The notes under the pieces: model-generated | The model's input: the letters and a program-made list of their open reading frames with translations, nothing else | Databases searched by the model: none | Told to the model about the DNA's origin: nothing | Shown: positions 5,031 through 56,039 of the stretch, piece by piece | Numbering within the stretch: the stretch's first letter is position 1 | Layout of the letters: every line of letters begins with the position of its first letter | From: a virus | IMG/VR virus record: IMGVR_UViG_3300049027_000111 | Span: 1 to 64,000 of that record | Reading direction: 5' to 3' (one strand) | Length of the DNA stretch: 64,000 nt | Program-made: the position numbers and the translations under genes

Positions 5031-5297
5031 ATGGCCGTCCGCGTCACCCAGACCAGCGCCGAGGCGCTGGTCACCGACAACACCGCTCGCAGGGTGCGGG
5101 CTACCCAGGTCTCAGCCGAGGCGCTGGTCACCAACAACACCGCCCGCCGGGTGCGGACCACCCAGATCAGCGCCGAGGTGCTGCAGACCGTCGGCACCAA
5201 CCCGGCGGTGCTGCGGGTCACCCAGATCAGCGCCGAGGTGCTGATGCAGGTGGTGCCCCCGGCCAGCCAGCGCTCCCGGGTGGTCTGGATTGTGTAA
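5031..5297 (+). CDS. Small virion-type protein built of four short repeats
   Basis: 88 residues made almost wholly of four tandem copies of a ~21-residue unit whose core is (V/A/T)TQ(T/V/I)SAE(A/V)L. The repeats are also clear in the DNA (cagaCCAGCGCCGAGG-like blocks about every 63 bases). Proteins with such VTQ-type repeats occur near tail fibre genes in other phages, function unknown. Located four bases after the lectin-like gene and before the GH5 gene, so a tail accessory role is likely. Confidence 0.6.
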   Translation: MAVRVTQTSAEALVTDNTARRVRATQVSAEALVTNNTARRVRTTQISAEVLQTVGTNPAVLRVTQISAEVLMQVVPPASQRSRVVWIV

Positions 5298-14140: not shown

Positions 14141-14539
14141 GTGCTTATCGTTGAGGACGAGACGATTATCGCCCTGATCCTGGAGATGACCCTCACGGGG
14201 GCCGGGATCGAGGTGTGCGGCGTCGCCGGTTCCGAGGAGGAGGCCTTGCAGATGGCCGCGATCTGCGAGCCGACGCATGCCATCTGCGACGTGCGGCTCG
14301 CGCCCGGCGACGGCCTGACGGTGGCGCGCGAGCTGCAGGCAAGATACCACTGCGCGATCGTGTTCTCGACCGCCTACGCCCACGATGTCTGCCACAAGCC
14401 GGGCCTGCCGCCCGGTGTGTGCCTGGGCAAGCCCTACGACCCCGCGCTTCTGCTCGCGGCCCTGCTCGCCGCGCGCGAGATCGCCGATGGCCAGCCGCCG
14501 TCGAAGCTGCCGCACGGGGCGGTGATCGTGGGGCCTTGA
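14141..14539 (+). CDS. Stand-alone response regulator receiver (CheY-like)
   Basis: 132 residues from GTG; a stop in frame 40 bases upstream leaves no other usual start. All receiver-domain landmarks are present: acidic pair Glu5-Asp6 in LIVEDE, phospho-acceptor Asp50 in AICDVRL, Ser76-Thr77 in the switch position, and Lys97 in the LGKPY loop. The domain fills the whole protein; there is no output domain. In bacteria such proteins pass or drain phosphate from histidine kinases. No kinase is near, so it would have to act on a host kinase. Unusual cargo for a phage. Confidence 0.75.
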   Translation: MLIVEDETIIALILEMTLTGAGIEVCGVAGSEEEALQMAAICEPTHAICDVRLAPGDGLTVARELQARYHCAIVFSTAYAHDVCHKPGLPPGVCLGKPYDPALLLAALLAAREIADGQPPSKLPHGAVIVGP

Positions 14540-19728: not shown

Positions 19729-20640
19729 TCACTCGTCCGCGAAGGCCGGCGGCGGGCTGGCGGCAGCGGCGGGGGCCGGCTGCTCCTGCGCCGCGGCGGG
19801 CGGTGGCTCGGGCTCGGGCGGCGACGGCTCGGGATCGGGATCCGGCACCGGCACCGGACGGCCGGGAGCGGGCAGGCTCACCATGTCGGGCGAGGCGTCC
19901 ACGGTCTCGCGCCCACCGTCGTCGAGGTCCCTGAGCGCGTCCGGGTCCTCGAGCGGCAGGCGCTTGCACAGGCGCTTGAGGCAAACCTTTCTCGCCATCT
20001 CGTCGGGGAAATTCTTCCAGGCGGGCGAGTTCTTCGACGGCGCAAGCTCGCGTATCTTCTCAATCTCCGCCCGCTCCATGAGCTCGATCTCGGGCGTGTC
20101 GACGCCCGTCACGACCGCGACGGCGTAGACCGCCAGCCAGTCGCCCCGGCCGCTGATCGGCACCTCGTGCTCGATGCTTTCGTCGGTGCCGAGCCGGATG
20201 CGGCAGCGGTCGTTCTCGCGGACGACGTGCGCGCTGACCTTCTTGACCAGTTGGCTGCGGCGCACGAGGGTCAGGGCCCCGCGGTAGTCCAAGCTCTCCT
20301 GCACCTGCCCTTTGAAGGGGAGCAGGTGGTAGCCACCTGCGCCGATCGGCAGGCCCGTCTTCGCCACGCGCTTGACGGCGCGCAGGAGCGAGGCCCGATC
20401 GGCGTTGAGCAGGTCGTTGTTGTCGCGCACCGCGGTGACGAGCAGCTCGCAGAGCCGTTCGATGTAGCCGGTGGTGCGCTGCTCGCGCGGCACGGTCGCG
20501 GCGAGGCTCTCGCGAAATTGCCGGCCGTCGACCTGCAACCGGAGCTGCTGGAAGGCCTGCTGCGCCGGGCTCGGCGGACGGACCTGCGCCGGGCTCGAGC
20601 CGCGCGGCTGGGCGAGCGGGACACGCTGCGGGTCGGTCAT
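19729..20640 (-). CDS. recT: RecT family single-strand annealing protein
   Basis: 303 residues from the ATG in an ATGA overlap. Core of the RecT fold is clear: RESLAATVP, ERLCELLVTAVRDN, GLPIGAGGYHLLPFKGQ, LDYRGALTLVRRS, then EIEKIRELA and a C-terminal DEMARKVCLKRL. The extra C-terminus is a Pro/Glu-rich tail. The family anneals complementary single strands during phage recombination. Directly follows the Cas4-like nuclease, the usual exonuclease-annealase pairing. Confidence 0.88.
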   Translation of the reverse strand: MTDPQRVPLAQPRGSSPAQVRPPSPAQQAFQQLRLQVDGRQFRESLAATVPREQRTTGYIERLCELLVTAVRDNNDLLNADRASLLRAVKRVAKTGLPIGAGGYHLLPFKGQVQESLDYRGALTLVRRSQLVKKVSAHVVRENDRCRIRLGTDESIEHEVPISGRGDWLAVYAVAVVTGVDTPEIELMERAEIEKIRELAPSKNSPAWKNFPDEMARKVCLKRLCKRLPLEDPDALRDLDDGGRETVDASPDMVSLPAPGRPVPVPDPDPEPSPPEPEPPPAAAQEQPAPAAAASPPPAFADE

Positions 20641-21497
20641 GCGATCTCCTGATAGGTCGCGGGGCAGGCCTTCGAGCCCCAAAGCCTGCAGTACTTCGCC
20701 GAGCACAAAAGACTGGACGGGTTCGGCAGGAACCGGCTCGGATCGCCATCGCGCTGGAAGTCCAGGGCTTTGGCCCCGAAGTCCTTCAGCACCGCATCAG
20801 CGATCTTCTCGGCCTCGACGATGCCGATCGGCTGCTGCTCCACGGACGGCTGGGGCTTCTGCTCCTTCACCCTCTGGATGAAGTCGACCTGGCAACCGTC
20901 GACCGCATGGCCGCGCGTGCGCAGGAGCAGCGTGTAGGCCCCGAGCTGTGGCGCGTGCCTCCAGGCGCTCATCCGGCGCCGGCCGGTCTTGGAGTCGTGC
21001 AGGATCGTGCGCCCGCCCTTCTCGGCATCGAGGGCGACGAGATCGCTCTGGCCGGAGATCACCAGCCCGGGCACCGCTTCCGCCTCCAGCCGGCGCTCGA
21101 CCGCCACCGGTCGCACGCGGGGCACGATGTCCCGGCGGTAGGTGCGGACCATCCGGCGCACCTGACCCTCGGCGGCGTTCCTCGAGGGTGTGTCATCATC
21201 CATGATGACGGGCTGGTCGCCGACATCCTCCGCCCACCGCTGCCGGAAGGCGCTGATGCCGGCGTCCTCGAGCACGTCGTCGGGCGACGGGCTGCCGCCG
21301 AGCAGGAGCTCGGTCAGCGCCAGCTCCGCCCCGCCGTGAACGCCGCTGCCGACGAGCGCGCCCACGTTCGCGCGCCGTGGGGCCATGGCGTGACCGTGCT
21401 CGGCGAACAGGTGCGGGAAGGCGTGGCCGGCGGCGCGCAATTGACAGTCGGTGAACGTGCTCAAGCTTGAAGCGCGGATGATCAGCGGCGGGCTCAC
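20637..21497 (-). CDS. Cas4/AddB-like PD-(D/E)XK nuclease with four-cysteine Fe-S site
   Basis: 286 residues from the GTG in a GTGA overlap. Nuclease motifs: His54 in GSGVHGG, Asp152 in SGQSDLVA, Asp168-x-Lys170 in LHDSKTG, and Gln184/Tyr188 in QLGAY, the QxxxY motif. Cys18 near the N-terminus and Cys265, Cys270 and Cys278 near the C-terminus fit the 4Fe-4S latch of Cas4 and AddB proteins. In phages this family replaces lambda Exo as the resecting nuclease for a RecT annealase, which is the next gene. Confidence 0.8.
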   Translation of the reverse strand: MSPPLIIRASSLSTFTDCQLRAAGHAFPHLFAEHGHAMAPRRANVGALVGSGVHGGAELALTELLLGGSPSPDDVLEDAGISAFRQRWAEDVGDQPVIMDDDTPSRNAAEGQVRRMVRTYRRDIVPRVRPVAVERRLEAEAVPGLVISGQSDLVALDAEKGGRTILHDSKTGRRRMSAWRHAPQLGAYTLLLRTRGHAVDGCQVDFIQRVKEQKPQPSVEQQPIGIVEAEKIADAVLKDFGAKALDFQRDGDPSRFLPNPSSLLCSAKYCRLWGSKACPATYQEIA

Positions 21498-21706
21498 GCC
21501 CAGCGCCACCAGCGCCACCAGGACCGGGTCGCGAGCTCCAGCCGGCGCTCGAGATAGCGCACCTCCCGCCGCAGCCGCGCCGCCTCGTCGATCGCCTCCT
21601 CGCGCTGCCGCTCGGCGCTCTGCAGCAGCTCCTCGAGCGCCAGGATGCGCGAGGACGGGCAGACGGTGATCCGGTCAGCGTCCGAGGTCTTGCGATCCGA
21701 CCACAT
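21494..21706 (-). CDS. Small coiled-coil protein, first gene of recombination operon
   Basis: 70 residues from ATG (MWSDRKTSDA); an upstream ATG at 21763 is possible but lacks a ribosome site. A central helix (EELLQSAERQREEAIDEAAR) is a strong coiled coil and the C-terminus ends in WWRWWRWA, very Trp-rich. Translation signal is GGAGGAGG, part of which lies in a hairpin. Function unknown. Confidence 0.6.
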   Translation of the reverse strand: MWSDRKTSDADRITVCPSSRILALEELLQSAERQREEAIDEAARLRREVRYLERRLELATRSWWRWWRWA

Positions 21707-33516: not shown

Positions 33517-33969
33517 ATGACAGAGCAAGTCAAGCGACCGCGTGGTAGACCGCTGACATACGACAAGGAAACAGCGCACGCGATCTGCGTAAGACTAGCG
33601 CGTGGTGAAACCTTGCGAGGTATTTGCCGAGACGAGGAATTCCCGCCAGAGAGCACCGTGAGGGCTTGGGCGCTTGAGGATATAGATGGTTTTGGTGCGC
33701 GTTACGCGTACTCTCGGCAGATGGGCCTCGACACGATGGCCGAGCAGCTGCTCGAGATCGCCGACGATGGCACCAACGACTTCGTCGCCGACAAGCACGG
33801 CGGCACCACGCTCAACATGGAGCACATCAACAGGTCGAGGCTGAGGGTCGACACCCGCAAGTGGTACCTCAGCAAGCTCGCACCCAAACGCTACGGCGAG
33901 AAGGTCGACGTCAACGTCGGCGGGCAGAGCGAGAACCCCGTGCAGACGGTGATCAAGTGGGAGAAGTGA
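33517..33969 (+). CDS. Terminase small subunit
   Basis: 150 residues from ATG (MTEQVKRPRG). N-terminal GRPLTYDKETAHAICVRLARG with a helix-turn-helix (LRGICRDEEFPPESTVRAW) is the DNA-recognition domain, followed by a long helix and a C-terminal RKWYLSKLAPKRYGEKV that is typical of this terminase family. The first 200 bases use more A/T-ending codons than neighbouring genes. Coupled to the large subunit by a GTGA overlap. Confidence 0.85.
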   Translation: MTEQVKRPRGRPLTYDKETAHAICVRLARGETLRGICRDEEFPPESTVRAWALEDIDGFGARYAYSRQMGLDTMAEQLLEIADDGTNDFVADKHGGTTLNMEHINRSRLRVDTRKWYLSKLAPKRYGEKVDVNVGGQSENPVQTVIKWEK

Positions 33970-35258
33970 TCGCGGCGCTCGACGCGCTGCCCCACGGCAC
34001 CCGCCAGATCACCATCCCCTACAAGCCACGAGACGCGTTCAAGGCCTTCCATGAGCGGCAGGAACGCTGGGCCGTCCTGGTCTGCCATAGACGTGCTGGG
34101 AAGACCGTCGGCGCCGTCAACGACCTCATCCGCTCCGTGTTCACCTGCACCCTGCCGCGGCCTCGAGCCTGGTACCTGGCGCCCACCTACGGGCAGGCCA
34201 AGCGCGCCTCCTGGGACTACGCCAAGCACTACAGCTCGGCCATCCCCGGCGTGAGGTTCAACGAGACCGAGCTCAGGGTCGACTACCCCGGCGGTGGCCG
34301 GCTCCAGCTCCTGGGCGCCGAGGCCGCCGAGCAGCTGCGCGGCATCTACGCCGACGCGGTCGTGCTCGACGAGTTCGCCTACATGGCCTCGAGCGTCTGG
34401 ACCCAGGTCATGCGGCCGGCGCTCTCCGACCGCCAGGGCCGGGCGACGTTCATCTCGTCGGTCAACGGCCGGAATGAGTTCTGGAAGCTCTACAGCGACG
34501 CTCAGGACGATCCTGAGTGGTACTCGATGGACCTCAAGGCCGATGCCTCGGGGATCCTGCCCGAGAAGGAGCTCGCGGCGCTGCGCAAGCAGATGTCCGA
34601 TGAGGACTACAGGCAGGAGTACCTCAACGACTGGGATGTCGCGACCAAAGGCTCGTACTACGGCGCCCTGATCGCCCAGGCCGAGATCGAGGGCCGGGTG
34701 TGCGGCGTGCCCTACGATGGAGCCCTGCCGGTGCACACCAGCTGGGACCTGGGCATCTCCGACAAGACAGCCGTGTGGTGCATCCAGGAGGTCGGCCGGG
34801 AGCTGCACCTGATCGACTACCTCGAGGACACCGGCAAGCCGCTGAGCCACTACGCCGCCGCGCTCAAGAACAAGGGCTACGCCTGGGGCACGCACTACCT
34901 GCCGCACGACGGCGCGGCACGGGAGCTGGGCACCGGCAGGAGCCGGCAAGAGGTGCTGGCGAACCTCGGCTTCACCTGCAGGATCGCGCCACGGCTCGAT
35001 GTCGAGGATGGGATCAACGCGGTGCGGACCCTGTTCTCGCGTCTCTGGGTCGACCGGACTCGTGCGCGCGAGGGCCTCGACCATCTCCGCCTCTACCGGG
35101 CGACCTACGACGAGAAGCGCAAGATCCTGAGCCAGCGGCCCTTGCACGACGAGCACAGCCACGCGGCCGATGCCCTGCGCACCTTCGCCATCGCCCATCG
35201 CTCGAGCACGGCACGCTCGGCGCGGCGCGATCGGCGCGAGATGGCGTGGATCGTGTGA
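33966..35258 (+). CDS. Terminase large subunit
   Basis: 430 residues from GTG in the GTGA overlap. ATPase: Walker A HRRAGKT at 41-47, Walker B VVLDE at 132-136, coupling motif SSVNG near 165. Nuclease: SWDLGISDKTA with Asp261, a mid-domain PHDGAARE, and a C-terminal HSHAADALRTF with the last acidic residue near 409. All parts of the packaging motor-nuclease are present. Marks the start of the late gene set. Confidence 0.92.
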   Translation: MIAALDALPHGTRQITIPYKPRDAFKAFHERQERWAVLVCHRRAGKTVGAVNDLIRSVFTCTLPRPRAWYLAPTYGQAKRASWDYAKHYSSAIPGVRFNETELRVDYPGGGRLQLLGAEAAEQLRGIYADAVVLDEFAYMASSVWTQVMRPALSDRQGRATFISSVNGRNEFWKLYSDAQDDPEWYSMDLKADASGILPEKELAALRKQMSDEDYRQEYLNDWDVATKGSYYGALIAQAEIEGRVCGVPYDGALPVHTSWDLGISDKTAVWCIQEVGRELHLIDYLEDTGKPLSHYAAALKNKGYAWGTHYLPHDGAARELGTGRSRQEVLANLGFTCRIAPRLDVEDGINAVRTLFSRLWVDRTRAREGLDHLRLYRATYDEKRKILSQRPLHDEHSHAADALRTFAIAHRSSTARSARRDRREMAWIV

Positions 35259-36406: not shown

Positions 36407-36631
36407 TCACGGTGTCCTCGTCGGCTTGAACGGGTTCGGCTCCTCGTCGATCCAGGGCGGCAGCTCTTCCTGGTCCGCGTTGTTGGCGATGGCGCTGGCG
36501 GCGGTCTCCAGCGTGATGGAGACAGTTTTGGGTCCGCCGTGGGTAGTGTTCATCCTGGCCCAGGCGCGCAGGAAGGTGGCGATCCGGCGGCGTTCGTCGG
36601 CGACGGCTCTTTGGAGCTCTTCCTCGCTCAC
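36407..36631 (-). CDS. Hypothetical small protein
   Basis: 74 residues from GTG behind AAAGGAGCAGACC. Helical N-terminal half (EEELQRAVADERRRIATFLR), polar C-terminus. The 23 bases around the start are identical to those of the next minus-strand gene upstream. Unknown function. Confidence 0.55.
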   Translation of the reverse strand: MSEEELQRAVADERRRIATFLRAWARMNTTHGGPKTVSITLETAASAIANNADQEELPPWIDEEPNPFKPTRTP

Positions 36632-36652: not shown

Positions 36653-36982
36653 TCAGGGCGGATCTTCGTCCCGTTCCACGACGACATGGTAGTCCTCCTC
36701 TTCCCGGGCCCGCCGGCAGGCGAGGTTCTCGATCCGCTCGCACAGGCCGATGAAGGCTTCGGCGACGGCGTTGTCGATGCGCCGGGCAGCCTCGTCGGGG
36801 GGTGTGTCGTCCGGGATGCGGTCGGCGGCGGTGTCGACGTAGCGTCGGGCGGCTTCCACCTCCTTGAGCAGGTCGTGTTCCAGGGGCTGGAGGGCGATCT
36901 CGACGGCGACCCAGCGCGTGCCTTTGGATCCGGCGAGGGCGAAGCCGGTGGTGAGGGTGACGGTGTCGGGGTTGTCGCTCAC
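36653..36982 (-). CDS. Hypothetical acidic protein
   Basis: 109 residues from GTG behind the same AAAGGAGCAGACC site as its downstream neighbour. Begins with beta segments (TVTLTTGFALAG, WVAVEIALQPLE), then an acidic helix rich in Arg/Glu pairs. No family recognised. Forms a two-gene minus operon. Confidence 0.55.
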   Translation of the reverse strand: MSDNPDTVTLTTGFALAGSKGTRWVAVEIALQPLEHDLLKEVEAARRYVDTAADRIPDDTPPDEAARRIDNAVAEAFIGLCERIENLACRRAREEEDYHVVVERDEDPP

Positions 36983-37107: not shown

Positions 37108-37437
37108 ATGATATGCGGTGTTCGGCTGTACCGGGACGGCGCGCCGTTCGTGTTCGCGGCGAATCGGATCAGCACGTTGTTCCTGCCCCATCTCCAGCGG
37201 ATGGAAGGTTTCCGTGGCGTGCTTCTGGTGCGCTTCGGCGACGATGGTGGCGCTGGCGGGTTGGGGGTGATCGCGTTCGACACGCCTGAGCAGCTGGAGG
37301 CGGCGAACCTGGCGGCGGCGTCGTGGGCGGAGCATCATCTCAGCGACCTGGTCGGTTCCCTGCAGCCGTCGGAGCTGTTCCCGGCGGAGGTGCTGATGGC
37401 GGCGGGGACGCTGGCGCCGCCCGGCCCGGGCGAGTGA
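37108..37437 (+). CDS. Small alpha+beta protein, possibly dimeric ferredoxin-like
   Basis: 109 residues. Pattern of strand, helix, strand, strand, helix (FRGVLLVRFGDDGG, GVIAFDTPEQLEAANLAA) resembles the antibiotic-biosynthesis-monooxygenase type dimeric barrel, without a proven active site. GTGA overlap couples it to the alpha-CTD-like gene. Confidence 0.45.
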   Translation: MICGVRLYRDGAPFVFAANRISTLFLPHLQRMEGFRGVLLVRFGDDGGAGGLGVIAFDTPEQLEAANLAAASWAEHHLSDLVGSLQPSELFPAEVLMAAGTLAPPGPGE

Positions 37438-38306
37438 GCTTGGGGCGAGCGACGCCTGTTGGTGGGCGGGAGGCCGCGGTGGCGTTGTCCGATGGCGTGG
37501 GCGTGGACGAGGTGCTGCGGCGACTGGAGCCGCAGGTTTGGCGGGGCTGGCGCTACTGGGGCGGCGCGCGGCCGGAGCCTTTGACGGCGGCCTCGCCGTT
37601 GTGGGACCTGCGATATTTAGGTGTCGGCTACCGGGTGCTGAAGCGGGCCGGCTTTCACCGGCTTGGCCAGCTGTGCGCGGTGTCGGAGCGTCAGCTTCTG
37701 TCGCTGAAGGGCTTTGGCGGCGTGGGGCTGCTGGAGCTCAAGGAGGCGTTGGCCTGGCACGGCTTCGCGTTGTCGGCCACGGACGGCCCGATGCCTTCGG
37801 CGGAGGAGCGGGTAGGGTTGGCGACGCCGCTGGGGTGGTTCGACGATGTCGATGCGGCCTCGGTGGCGCAGCTGCGCCAGGCCGGCTGCGTGACGGTGGG
37901 TGATTTTCTCGCCCGGACGACGAGCAGCTTGCTGGGCACGGGCGTGGTGGAGCCGCGGTCGATCAACGACGTCGATGGCACCTTGGGCCTGCACTACGGC
38001 CTGCACCGGGTGACGGAGCGGCGGGTTCCGCGAGTTCTGCCGCGGCCGCGGCCGCCTTTGAACCAGGCGGCGTTGGCGCGTGCGGCGCAGGCGTGGCGGT
38101 CGAGCAACGGGCATGAGCCGGACCTGCGGGCGCTGGAGGCGGCGATCCGGGCGTTCGCGAGCAGCAGCGGCGGCAGGGAGTGCATCGGTCCGGACGAGCG
38201 GCGTTACCGAAGCCTGACGGTGGCGGCGCGGTCGGCGGGTGTGGAGCCATCGACGATGCATCGCTGGGTGACGCGTCGCCTTCACGGCTGGCGCCCGGCC
38301 CCCTGA
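37434..38306 (+). CDS. Protein with two RNA polymerase alpha-CTD-like helical domains
   Basis: 290 residues from GTG. Residues 54-113 follow the alpha-CTD fold closely: PLWDLRYLGVGYRVLKRAGF, then LGQLCAVSERQLLSLKGFG and GLLELKEALAWHGFAL, matching L-x-L-x-V-R-x-x-N-x-L-K...I-G-D-L...LL-x-x-x-x-x-G-x-K-S-L-x-E-I. A second, more diverged copy spans 131-190 (TPLGWFDDVDAASVAQLRQA, TVGDFLARTTSSLL). The C-terminus (about 255-290) ends in an HTH (LTVAARSAGVEPSTMHRWV). The DNA-contact Arg265 and Asn268 of E. coli alpha are not kept. May bind DNA or host transcription factors and redirect transcription. Confidence 0.65.
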   Translation: MSLGRATPVGGREAAVALSDGVGVDEVLRRLEPQVWRGWRYWGGARPEPLTAASPLWDLRYLGVGYRVLKRAGFHRLGQLCAVSERQLLSLKGFGGVGLLELKEALAWHGFALSATDGPMPSAEERVGLATPLGWFDDVDAASVAQLRQAGCVTVGDFLARTTSSLLGTGVVEPRSINDVDGTLGLHYGLHRVTERRVPRVLPRPRPPLNQAALARAAQAWRSSNGHEPDLRALEAAIRAFASSSGGRECIGPDERRYRSLTVAARSAGVEPSTMHRWVTRRLHGWRPAP

Positions 38307-42431: not shown

Positions 42432-45110
42432 ATGCCCCTGCAGCCCGATGACCCGCTGGCGCCGGAGGTCGACCGTCCGGGCATGGCCCTGCCGGCCGGG
42501 GAGGCCAGGGATCAGCTGACCGACGAGCAATTCCAGGGCACCGTGAAGGCGCTGGTGCAGCGGGCGCACGACTACGCCCAGGACGAGCTCCGCCCGGCGC
42601 TCGAGCACGCGTGGCACTACTTCAGGGGCGGCGTGGACGCGTTGCCGGCCAATCTCGTCGGCACGGATCCCAGCGGCCGGGAGCTGTTCGAGGGCAGCCA
42701 GGTCGTGGTCCGCGAATGCTGGGACAAGGTGCAGGCGATCGTGCCCGAGGTCGCCCGGGTGTTCTTGTCGAGCGACGAGGCGGTGGCGTTCCTGCCGCGC
42801 GGCCCGGAGGACGAGGACGCGGCCGAGCAGGCGACCGACGTCGTCAACCACCTGTTCCGGATCGAGAACGACGGCGAGGATCAGCTGCTCACCAGCCTTT
42901 ACGACTGGTCCGTCAAGGCCACGGTCTGGAAGGTCTACCGCGAGGTCGAGGAGCGGGTCGAGACCTCGCAGTTCGAGGGCATCTCCGAGCTTGCGATCCA
43001 GAGCCTGGTCGAGCAGGCGCAGGCCGAGGGCTCGGAGGTGGTCGAGCTGATCGCCGAGGAGACCATGGCCCCGGCGCGGGTGGATGTGCCCCGGCCGCCG
43101 CCGATGCAGGGGCCGCCCGGAAATCTGGGGCCGCCTTCGCCCGAGATGCCGCCCGAGATGGCCGGAGCCATGCCGGGCGCTCCGCCACCCGGCCCGGAGG
43201 GTGCCCCGCCTGGTGTGCCCGCGGGACCGCCAGCCGGGCCGGGACCGGCGGGCATGCAGCCGCCGCCGCCGCCACCGGACCCGTTCCAGCAGGCCTTGCA
43301 TCAGGCGCTCGGCATGGAGCCGCCCCTGGTGCCGGTCTCGGTGCCGTTGGCCAGCTTCAAGGGCCGGATCACCCGGCTGCAGCGCAGCAGCAGGATCCGC
43401 TGCGAGTGCCTGCCGCCGGAAGAGCTTTTGATCGATCCGGACGCCCGGGACGGCTCGCCGCCGCTGATCATCGGCAGCGACCGGTACCTCACGGTTTCCG
43501 ACCTCGTCGCCATGGGCATCGAGATGGAGACGGCGCTCGAGCACGCGGGCGTGCGGCCGGACGATTACAGCGGCGTGCGGTTGGCGCGCACGCAGCGCAC
43601 GGGAACCGCCGCCGCGTTGGCGCCCGGAACCGAGGATCGCTCGCTCGAGTACGTGCGGGTGGTCGAGGCCCTGGTGAGCATCGACAGCGACGGCGACGGG
43701 GTCACCGAGCGGCATCGGGTCTTGTGCCTCGGCGAGGGCTTCGAGCTGGTCTCCGTGACCCCCGGAGACGACTGCGAGTACATCGTCGCCAGCCCCTTCC
43801 GCCTGCCGCACGAGCCCGTGGGTCGCGGCATCGTCGAGGAGCTCACCGACCTGCAGGACGTCAAGACGTCCTTGGTCAGGGACTGGTTGAACAATTTCCG
43901 CAGGTCGAATCATCCTCGCGAGATCCTTCCATCCGAGGACATCGATGCCTACACCGACCTGAAAAGCTGGTTCGGCGGCCCGATCCGCGCGATGCGGCCG
44001 GAGGCCCTGGGCTGGCATCAGGTGCCGATGGTCGCCGACAAGGCGATGCCGCTCTTGCAAATGTTCGATCAGATCGCCGCGATGCGCACGGGGATTGATG
44101 CCGCTGGCGCCGGGCTCAACCCAGACGTGCTAAAGGGCCAGACCGCGGCGGGCGCCTCGGCGATCGTGTCCGCGCCGCAGAGCCGCATGGAGTTCCTGGT
44201 CCGCGAGTACGCGGTCCGCTGCATGCGGCCGTTGTTCAAGGCGTTGCTGCGGCTGACGGTGCAGTTCCCGGACCGGGCGAAGGTGATCCGGCTTAGGAAC
44301 CGTTGGGTGGAATGCGATCCCCAAGCCTGGTCCGCGTCCTACGATTGCGAGCCGCGCGTCGGGCTGGGGACCGGGACCAAAGGCGAGCGCTTGCAGGCGC
44401 TGATGAGCATCGTCCAGCAGCAGCAGATGCTGATGCAGATCGGCAGCCCGCTGGTGACGCCGACCGAGCTTCGGAACAGCCTGGTGGAGATGTGCACGCT
44501 GTCGGGCCGGCGCGATGCCAGCCGCTACTTCCGCGACGTGACCGACGAGGAGCTGGCGATGCACGCGCAGCAGCAGCAGGCGGCGCAGCAGCAGGCGCTC
44601 CAGGCGGCGGCGCAGGCCGAGGCGATGAAGGAGGCTGCCAAGGCGCAGGCCACGGCTCAAGCGAAAGGTCAGGTCGACCTGCAGAAGGCCCAGCTCGATA
44701 ACGCCTTGGCCGAGAAGGCTCAAGCGGCGCAGCTGGACAGCGACATGCGGCAGTTCCAGCTCAAGCAGGCGGCCGAGGAGCGCCGCGCCGTCCAGGACCA
44801 GGAGGCGCAGCGGCAGGCGGCCGAGCTTGCCGCCGCGATCGAGCGCGAGAAGCAGGAGGTGGCCCGGGAATCGGCCCGCATCAAGGCCGAGCAGGACGCC
44901 GCTGCGCAACGTTACGCGGCCGAGCTCAAGGCCGCCACCGACCGCGAGCAGACCGAGGCGACCCTGAAGGCGAAGATGGCCGAGCTTGAGATGCGGCGCA
45001 GCATCCGGCTCGAGGAGCTGGCGCAGGAGGCCGAGCTCGAGCGGCTGAAGATGAGGACCAAGGCCCGCGACGGTCAGGGTGATGTGCCGGCGTCCGAGAA
45101 CCCGGCCTAG
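42432..45110 (+). CDS. Portal protein
   Basis: 892 residues, ATG behind AGAGGAGGAG. The core is that of a podovirus-type portal: RELFEGSQVVVRECWDKVQA, VADKAMPLLQMFDQIAAMRT, GIDAAGAGLNPDVLKGQTAA, SRMEFLVREYAVRCMRPLFK. A Pro/Gly-rich insert fills about residues 218-283. After the core, residues 700-885 are a long Gln/Ala/Glu coiled coil, probably the portal barrel. First gene of the structural block. Confidence 0.85.
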   Translation: MPLQPDDPLAPEVDRPGMALPAGEARDQLTDEQFQGTVKALVQRAHDYAQDELRPALEHAWHYFRGGVDALPANLVGTDPSGRELFEGSQVVVRECWDKVQAIVPEVARVFLSSDEAVAFLPRGPEDEDAAEQATDVVNHLFRIENDGEDQLLTSLYDWSVKATVWKVYREVEERVETSQFEGISELAIQSLVEQAQAEGSEVVELIAEETMAPARVDVPRPPPMQGPPGNLGPPSPEMPPEMAGAMPGAPPPGPEGAPPGVPAGPPAGPGPAGMQPPPPPPDPFQQALHQALGMEPPLVPVSVPLASFKGRITRLQRSSRIRCECLPPEELLIDPDARDGSPPLIIGSDRYLTVSDLVAMGIEMETALEHAGVRPDDYSGVRLARTQRTGTAAALAPGTEDRSLEYVRVVEALVSIDSDGDGVTERHRVLCLGEGFELVSVTPGDDCEYIVASPFRLPHEPVGRGIVEELTDLQDVKTSLVRDWLNNFRRSNHPREILPSEDIDAYTDLKSWFGGPIRAMRPEALGWHQVPMVADKAMPLLQMFDQIAAMRTGIDAAGAGLNPDVLKGQTAAGASAIVSAPQSRMEFLVREYAVRCMRPLFKALLRLTVQFPDRAKVIRLRNRWVECDPQAWSASYDCEPRVGLGTGTKGERLQALMSIVQQQQMLMQIGSPLVTPTELRNSLVEMCTLSGRRDASRYFRDVTDEELAMHAQQQQAAQQQALQAAAQAEAMKEAAKAQATAQAKGQVDLQKAQLDNALAEKAQAAQLDSDMRQFQLKQAAEERRAVQDQEAQRQAAELAAAIEREKQEVARESARIKAEQDAAAQRYAAELKAATDREQTEATLKAKMAELEMRRSIRLEELAQEAELERLKMRTKARDGQGDVPASENPA

Positions 45111-46777: not shown

Positions 46778-47875
46778 ATGGCGACCACGAACCAGCTTTG
46801 GGGCTTGGACGAGCCCGAGCCGGTCGATCCGGGCGCGCCGGGCATCGGCGGGCGCCTGGCGGAGCTCGTGCGCTACCTGCGCGGCGACGGTCCGGGCGTG
46901 CTCGACCAGATGACCGCCCAGCGCCAGCTCCTGCGCCAAAAGCTGGCCGGCGGGATGACCTATGCCGAGACCATGCGCGACCCGGAGCTCACCAACCTCG
47001 GCCTGGGGATCGCGAGCAACTTTGCCGGCGCCAGCATGCCGATGGCCACCCGCGGCATGACCCTGCCGCAGATGTGGCCGCTGCGCGAGGCGCCGGTCCC
47101 GGGCCTGACCAAGGGACCGGAGATGGCCAACCCGGTCACGCAGGCCTCGCAGGAGGCCTACAAGGCCCGCGCCGGCATCGCCAAGCCGCCGCTCGAGGGC
47201 AAGCTGCCGATGCCTGAGGACTATCTCCGGCGGGTCGCTGACCACATGGACGAGGCGCCGCACGCGCCGACCGATCCGGACGTGGCCGCCAGCTACCGGG
47301 CCATGATCGGCGAGACTGGCAAGCAGTTCGAGGCCTTGAAGGAAGCCGGCGTCCGCTTCGTCCCGTTCACGGGCAAGGGCGAGCCCTACGCCAGCTCCGC
47401 CCAGATGGCCGAGGATGTCGCCAAGAACAAGCGGCTGTATTTTCTGAAGACCGAGAACGCCTACGGCTCGGGGCAGAACCCATCCAACAACCCGATGCTC
47501 GGCGCCACCAAGTACCACGACCTCGAGGGCAACCCGATGGTCGCCAACGACCTGTTCCGGGTGATCCACGACTATTACGGTCACACGCCGCACGGCTTCC
47601 GCTTCGGCGGGCCGGGCGAATACAACGCCTTTCATGAGCACGCCAGAATGTTCAGCGACGAGGCGGTGCCGGCGCTGGCTTCGGAGACGCTCGGCCAGAA
47701 CGCTTGGGTGAACTTCGGCAAGCATTTGCGCCGCGCCGACGGCTCGATCCCGAAGCCGGGCGACGTCGACTACGTGCCGCTGACCGAGCGCCCGTTCTCG
47801 GACCAGAAGATGGTCAAGATGCCCTGGGACCTGCTCAACGCCGACCCGGCCCGCGGCATCGGTCTGGGCCGCTGA
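46778..47875 (+). CDS. Ejection-cluster protein with HDYYGH...HEH domain
   Basis: 365 residues. The C-terminal half carries VIHDYYGHTPHGF with His264, then GEYNAFHEHARMFSDEAVPA with His286, and SETLGQNAWVNFG; this block is found in many phage virion and polyvalent proteins and may be a metal-dependent hydrolase, though activity is unproven. The protein ends RGIGLGR, a tag shared with the next gene. TGATG overlap with that gene. Probably ejected with the DNA. Confidence 0.6.
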   Translation: MATTNQLWGLDEPEPVDPGAPGIGGRLAELVRYLRGDGPGVLDQMTAQRQLLRQKLAGGMTYAETMRDPELTNLGLGIASNFAGASMPMATRGMTLPQMWPLREAPVPGLTKGPEMANPVTQASQEAYKARAGIAKPPLEGKLPMPEDYLRRVADHMDEAPHAPTDPDVAASYRAMIGETGKQFEALKEAGVRFVPFTGKGEPYASSAQMAEDVAKNKRLYFLKTENAYGSGQNPSNNPMLGATKYHDLEGNPMVANDLFRVIHDYYGHTPHGFRFGGPGEYNAFHEHARMFSDEAVPALASETLGQNAWVNFGKHLRRADGSIPKPGDVDYVPLTERPFSDQKMVKMPWDLLNADPARGIGLGR

Positions 47876-49617
47876 TGCCGATCGGCCTCGGCTGGCGCGA
47901 GGGCGGGATCCCGGAGCCGGAGCCCGGCGCGGAAGACTGGTGGAAGAACACGGCCTACCCGGTGCTCGGCGGCTTGTGGGACTGGGTCAAGGGCAACCCG
48001 GTCGAGGCCGCGTCGGCGTCGATGGTGCCGGGGGTGTCGGACGTCGCCGATATCGGTCTGCTCGGCCGCGACCTCTACCGCTTCGGCACGGAGCCTTCCC
48101 GCGAGACCGCGGTCAACCTGGGCCTGGGTGCCGCCGGGGCCGCGCTGCCGTTCGTCGGTGCTGGCTGGATCAAGGCCGCCGCGGGCTACGCGCCGCAGAA
48201 GACCCAGAAGGCCTACAAGCTGTTTGAGCAGCACCCCAAGGACCCGAACCTGCTGCTGCCGCTGTTCGTCGGTCGCGACCAGCCGATTCCCTTCGGCGAG
48301 TGGCTGATCGCCGAGGCCGGGCAGCCTGGCAGGGCCCCCGGCAAGGTCAAGAGCACGCTGGGCGATCTGGCGTACCGCCCTGGCTGGCACGCGGGCGACG
48401 TGCCGATCGCGACGCACATCGGCGGCAAGAGCGACCCGACGTTGAAGGCGCCGGACTACCGCCCCGACAAGCAGGTCTGGGCCGAGGTCGAGATGGCCGA
48501 CGACCAGGACTGGCAGTCGGTCGCCAACGCCCGCGCCAGGATCACCAAGGCTGGGACGCCCGACCCGAAGACGGCGCACATCACCGATCAGGTGCCGCTC
48601 GAGGGCTACTACCGCTACAAGACCAACCCGAACATGACCGGCGAGTGGCTGATCGGCGGCAACATGCGGGTCAACCGCATCTTGAGCGACGAGGAGGTCG
48701 AGGCGGCCAACAAGGCCGCGGGCGTGTCCGACCTGCCGCGCCTGTCGAAGCTCAACCGTGGTGCTGACCTCGCCGAGGTGCCCGCCCTGGCCAAGACGGA
48801 GATGCGCCAGCTGGTCGGCGGCGGCGGCAGCCTCGAGGAAGCGCAGGGCCGGCTGCAGCAGCTGGGCCCGGGGCACGGCCTGCGGCGGAGCCCGACCCAT
48901 CCGGGGGTCTACTTCACCGTGCGCGAGCCGCAAGCACCCGAGGTGGGCGCGGCTGCCGCTCCCACGAGCTCCGAGCCGGCCCACTTCGTGTTCAAGGCGG
49001 ATCCGGCCACGTCCGAGACGGTCGAGCGGCTGGCCGGGCGGGTGACCTCCGGCGTCAACGATCGCGCCGGCCTCGGCAACAAGGGGCAGTACGTCTACGA
49101 CAACAACAGCATCCTGCTGGACTCTTCTCTCTCGCCCGAGCAGCGCCACGACACGCTCACCCACGAGCTCGGCCACGCCATGGCCGCCAAGGGCGGTGTC
49201 GTCGACCCGCGCGGGCTCGCGTGGCAAGGAGCGCCGCCGGCCCAGGTGCTGGAGCAGATCCGCGCCCTGTCCGCCGGGCGCCGGCCGCACCTGTGGGGCA
49301 GCAACGAGGAGCTCGAGAACGCCTTCCCGCATTTGGGCGCGGCGGCGATCAGCAAGTACCGGGAGCGGCCCGACGAGCTCGCCGCCGATCTGGTCGCCAG
49401 CATGATCGCCGACCCGGCGAAGGCGAAGCAGGTCGGCCACGAGGCCTACCGCTGGGCCGCATCGAAGCTCAACGCGTCCGACCTCGGCAAGATCGCCCAG
49501 TTCCTGGGCGTGCCGCTGGCCATGGTCAGCGCCGCCCTGGCGCAGGCCTCGGGGCTCGAGCCGGAAGAGGCGCCGCCACCGCCCGCCACGGCCGGCGGCA
49601 TCGGCCTGGGCCGGTGA
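47875..49617 (+). CDS. Ejection-cluster protein with zinc metallopeptidase domain
   Basis: 580 residues. Begins MPIGLG and shares its first ~90 residues (WWKN...MVPGVSDVADIGLLGRD...SRETA) with the gene at 51088. The middle (WHAGDVPIATHIGGKS, PDKQVWAEVEMADDQDWQSV, GYYRYKTNPNMTGEWLIGGN) is a domain known from phage polyvalent proteins. The C-terminal third has HELGHAM with His430, Glu431, His434 and a downstream RPDELAADL (Asp500/Glu501), a zincin active site. Ends GGIGLGR. A peptidase delivered into the host is inferred. Confidence 0.65.
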   Translation: MPIGLGWREGGIPEPEPGAEDWWKNTAYPVLGGLWDWVKGNPVEAASASMVPGVSDVADIGLLGRDLYRFGTEPSRETAVNLGLGAAGAALPFVGAGWIKAAAGYAPQKTQKAYKLFEQHPKDPNLLLPLFVGRDQPIPFGEWLIAEAGQPGRAPGKVKSTLGDLAYRPGWHAGDVPIATHIGGKSDPTLKAPDYRPDKQVWAEVEMADDQDWQSVANARARITKAGTPDPKTAHITDQVPLEGYYRYKTNPNMTGEWLIGGNMRVNRILSDEEVEAANKAAGVSDLPRLSKLNRGADLAEVPALAKTEMRQLVGGGGSLEEAQGRLQQLGPGHGLRRSPTHPGVYFTVREPQAPEVGAAAAPTSSEPAHFVFKADPATSETVERLAGRVTSGVNDRAGLGNKGQYVYDNNSILLDSSLSPEQRHDTLTHELGHAMAAKGGVVDPRGLAWQGAPPAQVLEQIRALSAGRRPHLWGSNEELENAFPHLGAAAISKYRERPDELAADLVASMIADPAKAKQVGHEAYRWAASKLNASDLGKIAQFLGVPLAMVSAALAQASGLEPEEAPPPPATAGGIGLGR

Positions 49618-50350: not shown

Positions 50351-51088
50351 ATGCCGCAGCCGATGCGCCGGACCATCCCGCGCCAGCTCGAGCTCCTGTC
50401 CAAGCGTGGCGACTGGCGCAGCGTCGCGCTGGTCGGCGTCGCGGACGGCGATGCCGCGACCTGGCTGACCCAGGTGGCGCCGCGCGCGCGGCTGACGATC
50501 GTCGCCACGTGGCCGGAGGAGGGCGTCCTGCGCGCGGCCAAGCTCGCGGGCCAGCAGCGCCAGCTGCGGCGCCTGGCGCGGGCCTATGGCGACCGGCTGA
50601 CCTTCCTCGAGGCCGACCCGAAGGAAGCGCTCAAGGCGGTTGGCGACGACAAGTTCGACGCGGTGGCGCTCCTCGGCGGCCTCGAGGGCAAGGAGCTCGG
50701 CACCGTCGGCAAGCGCTGGGCGGAGCACGTCAACCAGGGCGGCATGCTGCTCGGCATCGATCATCGCGACAAGGCGACGGCGAGCGCGCTCAAGAAGCTG
50801 GCGCCGGAGCACCAGAAGCTGAAGGACGGCCTGTGGGCCGCCCGCATCCGCCGGCCGTCACCAGAAGGCGAGGAGCAGGGCGAGCCCGACCCGGTGCTGT
50901 CGGAGCCGCCGGCAATCGAGGGGCCCGAGCTCGAGGATCCGCCGATCGAGGAGACGGAGCCCGACCTTGAGGAGGATCCGCCGAGCGACGGCGAGCGCGA
51001 TCTGGCCCTGGAGGCCGCCGAGCCCGAGCCCGAGCCCGCGCCGCCGGTGGTGAAGCGCACGCGCGGTCGGCCGCGGAAGGCCCCCTGA
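50351..51088 (+). CDS. Methyltransferase-fold protein with C-terminal AT-hook
   Basis: 245 residues. Residues 25-150 follow a class I methyltransferase fold: SVALVGVADGDAATWL, ARLTIVATWPEE, DRLTFLEADPKEAL, FDAVALLGGLEGK, GGMLLGIDH, but the SAM loop GVADG is degenerate, so activity is uncertain. An acidic Pro/Glu linker follows, and the protein ends KRTRGRPRKAP, an AT-hook. DNA binding of the tail is likely. Odd cargo inside the ejection cluster. Confidence 0.55.
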   Translation: MPQPMRRTIPRQLELLSKRGDWRSVALVGVADGDAATWLTQVAPRARLTIVATWPEEGVLRAAKLAGQQRQLRRLARAYGDRLTFLEADPKEALKAVGDDKFDAVALLGGLEGKELGTVGKRWAEHVNQGGMLLGIDHRDKATASALKKLAPEHQKLKDGLWAARIRRPSPEGEEQGEPDPVLSEPPAIEGPELEDPPIEETEPDLEEDPPSDGERDLALEAAEPEPEPAPPVVKRTRGRPRKAP

Positions 51089-52599
51089 TGGCCAGGATCG
51101 GCCTCGGCCCGAGCGGCCCCCCGGCGCCGGATCCGCGTGCTGAGGACTGGTGGCAGTCGGTCTACCCGACGCTGCGCTCCGCCTGGGACTGGACGCGCGG
51201 CAATCCTCTCGACGCCGCCAGCATGTCGATGGTCCCGGGCGTCTCCGATGTCGCCGACGTGGCGATAGCCGGCCGTGACATCGGCCGGTTCGCCCATCAG
51301 CCGAGCCGCGAGACGGCGCTCGATGCCGCGCTGTCGACCGCCGGGGCGGCGCTGCCGGTGCTCGGTGCCGCCACGGTCAAGCGCGCCGGCACGGTCGCAA
51401 GCAAGCTTGGGACCAGGGCGGCGATCGAGGGCCCGATCCCGATCTCGGCCGCGTCGTTCGCGAAGGAACCGGTGAAGCAGGAGATCGAGCGGCGCGTCTC
51501 CACGATGGAGGCGCCGTTCGACATCTCCGATCTGGGCCGGAGCAGCGGGCCGCAGGCCGAGCTGCCGCGCTACGATCCGCGCGCCGGCAAGGGCCGCGGC
51601 TTCCCGGCCCGGGTGCAGCGGCTCATGGGGAACAAGGACGTCTACGAGCAGATGAAGGGGTTCGTCGAGCGCGGCCTCGATATGAGCGGCCGCGAATGGT
51701 ACGACACCCGGCCGCTCAAGGAGGCGTTCATCGAGCACTGGGGCCCGGAGGACGGGCCCGGAATGTTCACGCGCTACATGGACTACGTGGCCGCCTCGAG
51801 CCCGCGCTCGGACGTGGCCAGCAACATCAGGAACGCCAGCTACTATTACAGCCGCGACGTGCAGGGCAACCCGCTCACGGACGCGGAGGAGAAGCTGCCC
51901 TACCCCTACGGCCATCTGGCGCAGGGCCTGCACAAGCAGAACGCCGTTCGGGTCGGCGACCCGAATCAGGTGAGCTTCGATCCCAGGAACAACCCCAAGC
52001 CCTTGTCCTTCTCGGCCAACCTCCAGGGCAACCATTTGCCGGCCACGATCGATGCGCATGCGATCAAGCTGCCGGCGATGCTCGCGCGCGATCCCGAGTT
52101 CCTGATCCGGAACATCCGCGAGGAGGCGTTTGATCCGGTCACCGGGAAGAACAAGATCGATCCGGCGACAGGGAAGAAGGTCTACATCAACCGCAGCCCC
52201 TACAAGGAATTCAAGGCGGGCACGCTGTCGATGGACGATGCGGTCAAGGACCCGACCTTGTGGGAAGGCCAGCCGAACGAGAACGAGTACCTGGCGATGG
52301 AGCTCTATTACAAGCGCATCGCGGAGGAGCTCGGCATCACGCCCGCCCAGGCCCAGGCCGCGGCATGGGTCGGCGGTGGCCATCTCACCGGTCTGGAGAG
52401 CGCGGCCGAGCCGTTCATGGCGACCGTCAACAAGCGGCTCCAGCGCACCGCGGCGGTGCATGAGCTGCCGGTCGAGGAGACCACGCGCCGTTTCGTCAAG
52501 GGCGAGCTGCCGCTGTTGAGCGCGGCGCCGGTCGGCATCGGCCTCGGGCTGGGCGCCCGGACCTTGAGCCAGCTCGGCGCCGACGAGGAGCCCTACTAG
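51088..52599 (+). CDS. Ejection-cluster protein, shared N-terminus and DUF7178-like domain
   Basis: 503 residues, starting MARIGLG. The first ~95 residues repeat the module of the gene at 47875 (AEDWWQS, DAASMSMVPGVSDVAD, SRETALDAALSTAGAALPVL). From about 190, REWYDTRPLKEAFIEHWG, MDYVAASSPRSDVASNIRNA, PYPYGHLAQGLHKQNAV and SFSANLQGNHLPATIDAHAI are the pattern of a phage domain annotated DUF7178. Near the end GIGLGLGAR resembles the tag. Probably packaged with the DNA. Confidence 0.6.
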   Translation: MARIGLGPSGPPAPDPRAEDWWQSVYPTLRSAWDWTRGNPLDAASMSMVPGVSDVADVAIAGRDIGRFAHQPSRETALDAALSTAGAALPVLGAATVKRAGTVASKLGTRAAIEGPIPISAASFAKEPVKQEIERRVSTMEAPFDISDLGRSSGPQAELPRYDPRAGKGRGFPARVQRLMGNKDVYEQMKGFVERGLDMSGREWYDTRPLKEAFIEHWGPEDGPGMFTRYMDYVAASSPRSDVASNIRNASYYYSRDVQGNPLTDAEEKLPYPYGHLAQGLHKQNAVRVGDPNQVSFDPRNNPKPLSFSANLQGNHLPATIDAHAIKLPAMLARDPEFLIRNIREEAFDPVTGKNKIDPATGKKVYINRSPYKEFKAGTLSMDDAVKDPTLWEGQPNENEYLAMELYYKRIAEELGITPAQAQAAAWVGGGHLTGLESAAEPFMATVNKRLQRTAAVHELPVEETTRRFVKGELPLLSAAPVGIGLGLGARTLSQLGADEEPY

Positions 52600-55010: not shown

Positions 55011-56039
55011 GTGGCGACAGTTACCGGCACCCTTGTGACCAATGGGACGCAAACGCTCGTTGGCATGCGCGAAGATCTCGCGGAGTTTATTAGCAGAACA
55101 GATCCAGCTGAGACGCCATTCTATAGTTTCTGCGATGAGGGCACGGCCAAGAATTCACTTGCGCACGACTGGCAGACCGTCGATCTGCGCAACGCCCGCC
55201 GCGTCCCGAGGCCTGAGGGCGACACCGTCACCCTCGACACGCCGAAGAAGACAGTCAAGCTCAGCAACGCTTGCGAGATCATCCGTGGCGAGTATGGTAT
55301 CTCGGGCACGGCGCAAGCGGTCGATACCGCTGGCGACACAGGCTCGATGAATTTTCAGCGGCTTCATTTTGGCATGGAGCTGCGCAAGGACGTCGAGTTC
55401 ATGCTGCTCGGCCCGCAGAACAAGAAGGCGACCGACACGCGCGAGTCGGCCGGCATCCAGGCCTTTGCCGGGGTCTTCTCCTACGGCTCCGGCGCCACGA
55501 CCCCTGGCACGGGCGCCAGCGCCGGCACGGTCGATGTCACGCAGGGCACCGCCCGTGACCTGACCATGGACATTCTCAACACAGGCCTAAGATCAGCCTG
55601 GACCGGCGGCGCCCGCACGTCAGTCATGTTCATGTCAAGCGCTCAAAAGATGGGCATCGACGAGGTTTTGCCGACCGATCAGCTGGCCACCGGCCAGTCT
55701 GATCTGTTGAAGGATGGCGTTCTTGTGGCCACGACAGTCGCGGTGTGGCGGTCAGCTTTTGGCGACGTTAAGTTTGTAATGGATCGTATCCTTGACGAAG
55801 GTGCAACCGACAGTGCTGGCGACCCGATTACTTGGGGAACCGGCGTGATAATTGGCGTCGATGAGCGCGGCACCTATCGCCCGAAGGTCTGCACCTTGCC
55901 GGGCCGCAAGTTCAAGACCGAGCCGCTGGGCAAAAGGGGCGACATCGATGAAGAGCTGGTCGTGTGGGAAGGCACGCTCGAGGTGCCGAACCCGGCGGCC
56001 ATCGCCGTCATAGGCGGGTTGAACGACCCGACGGCGTGA
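55011..56039 (+). CDS. Major capsid protein (SU10/DUF5309 type)
   Basis: 342 residues from GTG behind AAGG. Starts TGTLVTNGTQTLVGMREDLA and AEFISRTDPAETPFYSF, then WQTVDLRNARRVPRPEGDTV, IIRGEYGISGTAQAVDTAGD, ELRKDVEFMLLGPQNKKATD, and a C-terminal LVVWEGTLEVPNPAA, the pattern of SU10-like HK97-fold coats. Codon use is more A/T-tolerant than its neighbours in several blocks, as often in highly expressed coats. A 118-base pyrimidine-rich leader precedes it. Confidence 0.88.
   Translation: MATVTGTLVTNGTQTLVGMREDLAEFISRTDPAETPFYSFCDEGTAKNSLAHDWQTVDLRNARRVPRPEGDTVTLDTPKKTVKLSNACEIIRGEYGISGTAQAVDTAGDTGSMNFQRLHFGMELRKDVEFMLLGPQNKKATDTRESAGIQAFAGVFSYGSGATTPGTGASAGTVDVTQGTARDLTMDILNTGLRSAWTGGARTSVMFMSSAQKMGIDEVLPTDQLATGQSDLLKDGVLVATTVAVWRSAFGDVKFVMDRILDEGATDSAGDPITWGTGVIIGVDERGTYRPKVCTLPGRKFKTEPLGKRGDIDEELVVWEGTLEVPNPAAIAVIGGLNDPTA

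Follow-up and report, generated by a model that had tools for sequence, protein, structure and literature searches.

The window analysed here, a stretch of 64,000 nucleotides, is part of a 66,480-base IMG/VR virus record (IMGVR_UViG_3300049027_000111; 69.5% G+C). Its terminase and portal genes flank an island in which short genes run in either direction, and within this island a gene was found whose product resembles the RNA polymerase alpha-CTD. The features dealt with are as follows, with residues numbered on the 275-aa version of the protein that begins at GTG 37479:

33966-35258: terminase large subunit
37108-37437, plus strand: upstream neighbour gene by gene call, possibly co-transcribed with the alpha-CTD-like gene
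37468-37473, plus strand: Shine-Dalgarno-like GGGAGG, read from the sequence, 5 nt before GTG 37479
37479-38306, plus strand: gene of the alpha-CTD-like protein, GTG start, 275 aa, with an in-frame Pfam match
37596-37778, plus strand: domain 1 (residues 40-100), alpha-CTD fold according to Pfam, RpoA-only profile, AlphaFold and Foldseek
37827-38003, plus strand: domain 2 (residues 117-175), probable degenerate alpha-CTD-like helix-hairpin segment, with profile scores above all shuffles
38196-38282, plus strand: predicted C-terminal helix pair with HTH-like pattern (residues 240-268, TVAARSAGVEPSTMHRWV)
42432-45110: portal
55011-56039: major head protein

An earlier note, made from the letters alone, had placed the gene at 37434-38306. 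This frame is open, and the G+C by codon position in the frame of 37479-38306 (0.72/0.57/0.87) fits a genuine gene. The start was revised: GTG 37479 is the likelier one because of the GGGAGG upstream of it and because a home-made gene caller picked it, while the GTG at 37434, which would add 15 codons, is without an obvious ribosome site. For the upstream neighbour no significant match was obtained in Pfam or PHROG.

With regard to the genome as a whole, the terminase is nearest to those of Rhodoferax phage P26218 and of Pelagibacter phages, its nearest counterpart on a genome contig belongs to a Rhodospirillaceae MAG (49%), and the portal is nearest to those of environmental phages and of phages of Sinorhizobium, Rhizobium and Sulfitobacter. 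Judging from these relatives, the host is likely, if not established, to be proteobacterial and perhaps alphaproteobacterial. The window proteins that were scanned included neither a recognisable RNA polymerase nor a recognisable sigma factor, so the phage probably depends on the host RNA polymerase. No tRNA genes were found, and a promoter scan of the short-gene island found nothing. Several other features of the window are recorded here in their own right: a response-regulator receiver domain at 14141-14539 on the plus strand (Pfam Response_reg, E=1.1e-10); a small protein at 5031-5297 (plus strand) built from repeats of the type TQxSAEALVT(D/N)NTARRVR; a RecT-like annealing protein and exonuclease gene pair at 19729-21518 (minus strand), which represents a phage recombination module; two genes of the structural region at 47875-49617 and 51088-52599 (plus strand), likely a paralogous pair with similar beginnings (EDWWKNTAYPVLGGLWDWVKGNPVEAAS, EDWWQSVYPTLRSAWDWTRGNPLDAAS); and two minus-strand genes at 36407-36631 and 36653-36982, which by eye have a common upstream sequence, with AAAAGGAGCA as a strong ribosome site a short distance ahead of the GTG.

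The earlier note had likened the first domain to the alpha-CTD and had named a profile search for the alpha-CTD family as a check; the likeness withstood the analysis. The whole protein matched PF03118 (RNA_pol_A_CTD) at E=6.1e-8 with 32.7 bits against a gathering cut-off of 23.8, this being its sole relevant Pfam match, and in a PF03118 search of the phage's own genome the alpha-CTD-like protein exceeded the cut-off with 27.3 bits. A profile built only from three RpoA CTDs (RpoA-only profile) gave 32.7 bits on domain 1, with none of 2000 shuffles above 5.2, and the other predicted genes of the window reached at most 1.8 bits. When the PDB was searched with the whole protein sequence, the majority of the matches and every significant one were RNA polymerase alpha subunits, led by that of Streptomyces (E=3e-7). 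Of the NCBIfam alpha-subunit models only the C-terminal part aligns to the protein, far below cut-off, and the alpha-NTD, which is responsible for RNA polymerase assembly, had no match in the Pfam search of the protein.

From the single sequence AlphaFold gave an uninformative model (mean pLDDT 36.6). A second model, whose input was an alignment of domain 1 with 25 phage alpha-CTDs, reached a mean pLDDT of 70.0 overall and ten-residue block means of 84-96 over residues 31-110, with helices of domain 1 at 49-56, 62-66, 70-74 and 81-93; since its input alignment is made of alpha-CTDs, it does not stand independently of the sequence match. In a Foldseek search against the PDB with the 275-residue query, the best 50 matches listed were all RNA polymerase alpha structures, at E-values none of which was below 0.001. 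Isolated alpha-CTD chains (7vpd_S, 1z3e_B, 1lb2_E, 8y5t_A2 and 8hvr_K) were superposed on the domain 1 model with 0.8-1.4 A over 55-65 columns and target-normalised TM-scores of 0.83-0.92. The helix-hairpin fold on which the likeness had been staked is therefore present in domain 1 of the alignment-aided model, and domain 1 is, by sequence and predicted structure, a helix-hairpin domain of the RNA polymerase alpha-CTD type.

In E. coli alpha, DNA is contacted by R265, N268, C269, G296, K298, S299 and E302. The aligned equivalents in domain 1 are V/R/V/G/V/G/E, which upholds the replacement of the DNA-contact Arg and Asn reported before (R265 to V, N268 to R) and adds K298 to V and S299 to G, so that the canonical contact set of an UP-element reader (R265, N268, K298, S299) is absent from domain 1 and canonical DNA binding by it is argued against. 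Equivalents of L270, K271, H276, G279, E286, G296, L300 and E302 are kept. In domain 2, as the alignment was read by eye, the positions of R265 and N268 are likewise changed, with R and S at 298 and 299. Of the other phage alpha-CTDs, 25 in number, 22 have K or R at position 298 and 22 have S at position 299; that R265 and N268 are kept in 25/25 carries no weight, since the search pattern demanded both residues. Within the phage alpha-CTDs seen, the window protein is unusual in having lost the canonical DNA contacts. As to protein contacts, the equivalent of E261 on the sigma-contact surface reads R in domain 1, and the activator-contact strip is partly retained (T285 to S, E286 unchanged), with the equivalents of V287 and E288 altered.

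The second, diverged alpha-CTD copy that had been proposed for the protein fared less evenly. In its favour, the RpoA-only profile gave 15.7 bits on domain 2 (best of 2000 shuffles 6.4; 0/2000 as high) and a broader profile gave 7.7 bits (best of 5000 shuffles 4.7; 0/5000), identity to the M. tuberculosis alpha-CTD amounts to 33% over 63 aligned columns, and the ATPL with which domain 2 starts, like the ASPL at the start of domain 1, resembles ALPI of actinobacterial RpoA. Against it, domain 2 alone found alpha subunits in a PDB sequence search at E=0.14-0.43 with an unrelated protein ranking first, and the expected fourth helix was modelled as strands at low confidence (block means of about 35-61). 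Descent as an internal duplicate of domain 1 found no support in the pairwise comparison, the score being reached by 629 of 5000 shuffles. On balance domain 2 is probably a degenerate second alpha-CTD copy. The same three weaknesses, in database match, pairwise match and modelled end, would be expected if its likeness were chance and the protein had a single alpha-CTD-like domain, the rest of it being helical but unrelated, which we hold to be possible but rather doubtful in view of the shuffled controls and of the A(S/T)PL opening of both domains; this concerns anatomy and is compatible with any functional reading.

Towards the C-terminus, helices at residues 240-252 and 257-268 were predicted in both AlphaFold models (block pLDDT 67-77 in the alignment-aided one), and this stretch resembles an HTH by sequence pattern. 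For the HTH claimed earlier, Pfam, PHROG and PDB searches gave no support at the C-terminus. Sigma70_r4 had no Pfam match in the window protein up to E=10.

Relatives of the gene were sought at several levels. Three related IMG/VR contigs, which are fragments, and five phage genomes with a related terminase or portal were without a PF03118 match, and sister phages sought in IMG/VR by means of the portal protein were not found. Of 289 genomes from the class to which the Rhodospirillaceae MAG belongs, 274 match PF03118, nearly all exactly once and about nine twice, where a single match per genome is to be expected from RpoA. No relative of the whole protein came up when IMG/VR and GTDB genomes were scanned with degenerate patterns, and a scan by an alignment led by domain 1 returned 29 stretches, of which 0 were confirmed. 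The 385 genomes of the same class held no credible relative of the part after domain 1; the sole match to residues 119-290 of the longer version has internal stops. Likewise set aside were a tblastn match in MT836588, a chance match that falls in a flagellar-hook-associated-like ORF, and weak matches to BLR5658 and an N-acetylmannosamine kinase. The alpha-CTD-like gene looks like a lineage-specific acquisition. The RpoA sequences closest to domain 1 are actinobacterial; a domain of 60 residues cannot settle the origin, and a tree of these 60-residue domains was too weak for use.

A phage-encoded alpha-CTD module had been regarded as new, which did not hold: a scan of IMG/VR yielded 35 loci, and several isolated phages have such modules, some of them annotated, so that the window protein is an unusual variant and not the first of its kind. 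With an RpoA CTD as query, proteins of the phages Goe8, Mazun, Morrill, vB_RpoS-V16 and Mecenats66 were found (plainly bacterial rpoA records in the phage collection were excluded from the count); that of Bacillus phage Goe8 is annotated 'RNA polymerase subunit alpha' and those of the Microbacterium phages Mazun and Morrill 'DNA binding protein'. An alpha-CTD domain is also borne by Zenteno07 gp68 and Mithril gp57, and an annotation of alpha-CTD type is present for Mithril and several uncultured Caudovirales proteins. For Erythrobacter phage vB_EliS-L02, ORF40 is reported as an alpha-CTD protein on the basis of annotation (PMC9127768). In 15 of the 35 IMG/VR loci, open frames read by eye contain a sigma-70 region-4-like HTH followed by the alpha-CTD, and Pfam recognised Sigma70_r4 together with RNA_pol_A_CTD in L016, L017 and L032. 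Phage or prophage proteins with this combination are widespread and were noted at L016, L017, L018, L023, L029-L036, L042 and L043, and L032 additionally carries a Cro/CI-type HTH. Other fusions join the alpha-CTD to a MazG-like pyrophosphatase (Ruegeria phage vB_RpoS-V16; L011:1426-2292) or to a NinX domain (Morganella phage Mecenats66; L012:1141-1704). No functional study of a phage-encoded alpha-CTD protein was found in the open-licence literature.

Two observations were made alongside. The alpha-CTDs of L022 and L027 match an internal segment (positions 787-862) of the BREX kinase PglW model NF033442, a profile resemblance which suggests that PglW contains an alpha-CTD-like segment. On a large plasmid of Streptomyces sp. 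NBC_01717 a gene (L008:2260-3267) is annotated as a full-length RNA polymerase alpha subunit, and about 20 Streptomyces plasmid records have similar alpha-subunit matches.

Set beside these proteins, domain 1 of the window protein shares fold and core sequence with the canonical RNA polymerase alpha-CTD, whereas the protein as a whole differs from the alpha subunit in lacking the alpha-NTD and in the probable degenerate second copy and putative HTH that follow domain 1. The sigma-70 region 4 fusions (L016, L017, L018, L023, L030, L032) are likewise phage-encoded, combine an HTH with an alpha-CTD and are of comparable size (about 200-380 aa), but in them the region-4-like HTH precedes a single alpha-CTD and K/R298 and S299 are retained in most. 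Mycobacterium phage Zenteno07 gp68 and Mithril gp57 resemble the window protein as small alpha-CTD proteins of isolated phages, and with 36% identity the Zenteno07 alpha-CTD ranks with those nearest to domain 1; both differ in that the alpha-CTD is C-terminal to an unrelated N-terminal part and keeps R265 and N268. Gp23 of vB_RpoS-V16, a 288-aa protein of a phage with an alphaproteobacterial host, shares the N-terminal position of the alpha-CTD, but its C-terminal part is the MazG-like pyrophosphatase and not an HTH. The Goe8 protein and ORF40 of vB_EliS-L02, the latter compared from the text of PMC9127768 alone, agree in being phage proteins annotated as alpha subunit or alpha-CTD; the Goe8 protein departs from the window protein in its single C-terminal alpha-CTD and has no homology outside it. 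New here are the tandem arrangement, in which the second copy is probable, and the loss of the canonical DNA contacts.

As to function, the alpha-CTD contacts sigma region 4, activators and NusA. The explanation that we favour, tentatively and at somewhat less than an even chance, is that of a phage DNA-associated regulator which would use its alpha-CTD-like modules for protein contact. Binding to DNA would fall to the C-terminal helix pair, as a probable HTH, while the N-terminal module, with its good and its degenerate copy, would serve as contact surface for proteins; it is not proposed as an UP-element reader, as the canonical minor-groove residues are gone. Such a regulator would tune how the host RNA polymerase transcribes, be it the phage genome or from host promoters. 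For this speaks the repeated coupling of alpha-CTD with DNA-binding domains in phages (the 15 of 35 loci above); against it stand the HTH without profile support, the R in place of the sigma-contacting E261 and the position of the gene in the terminase-portal island, outside a recognisable early regulatory block. Conservation of the interaction surface is not readable, since a homologue of the whole protein was not found. Nor does an alpha-CTD module alone imply transcription, since it is also fused to the MazG-like pyrophosphatase and to NinX.

The last point leads to the strongest alternative, a general helix-hairpin-helix (HhH) nucleic-acid-binding protein of replication, recombination or packaging, alpha-CTD-derived or merely alpha-CTD-like, whose link with RNA polymerase is gone. 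HhH folds are in wide use for DNA backbone binding, in domain 1 the glycine of the hairpin and the counterpart of E302 are retained and the groove residues are not, other phage alpha-CTDs score HHH_5 weakly, and the gene adjoins terminase and nuclease genes. However, the sequence is nearest to the alpha-CTD and not to the HHH families, PF03118 having no relevant competitor in Pfam, and the listed fold matches all led to RNA polymerase alpha, so that such a protein appears possible but not probable.

Less likely still is an alpha-CTD mimic in which modules devoid of DNA binding would serve as decoy or adaptor towards those host proteins to which the alpha-CTD is a docking site, with the HTH anchoring them to chosen DNA. 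A plain decoy, that is, a mimic dead in DNA binding which would sequester host activators, sigma region 4 and NusA and so damp host transcription, would suit the retained fold, the lost DNA contacts and the partly retained activator strip (T285, E286), but is the least probable of these readings, given that the V287, E288 and E261 equivalents are altered, that a DNA-binding C-terminus would be superfluous, and that no host-matched mimicry is visible, the closest RpoA being actinobacterial while the nearest phage relatives point to proteobacteria.

Known alpha-directed factors of phage takeover modify, cleave or bind the host alpha subunit; a decoy or adaptor anchored by an HTH would, if true, be a new mode of redirecting the host RNA polymerase. 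It seems common for a phage to encode its own alpha-CTD module, and the 35 IMG/VR loci together with several isolated phages, cultivable ones among them (for instance those encoding Zenteno07 gp68 and Mazun gp26), are candidates for asking whether the module acts as an adaptor, a decoy or a DNA reader, the window protein being the variant without the DNA-reading residues.
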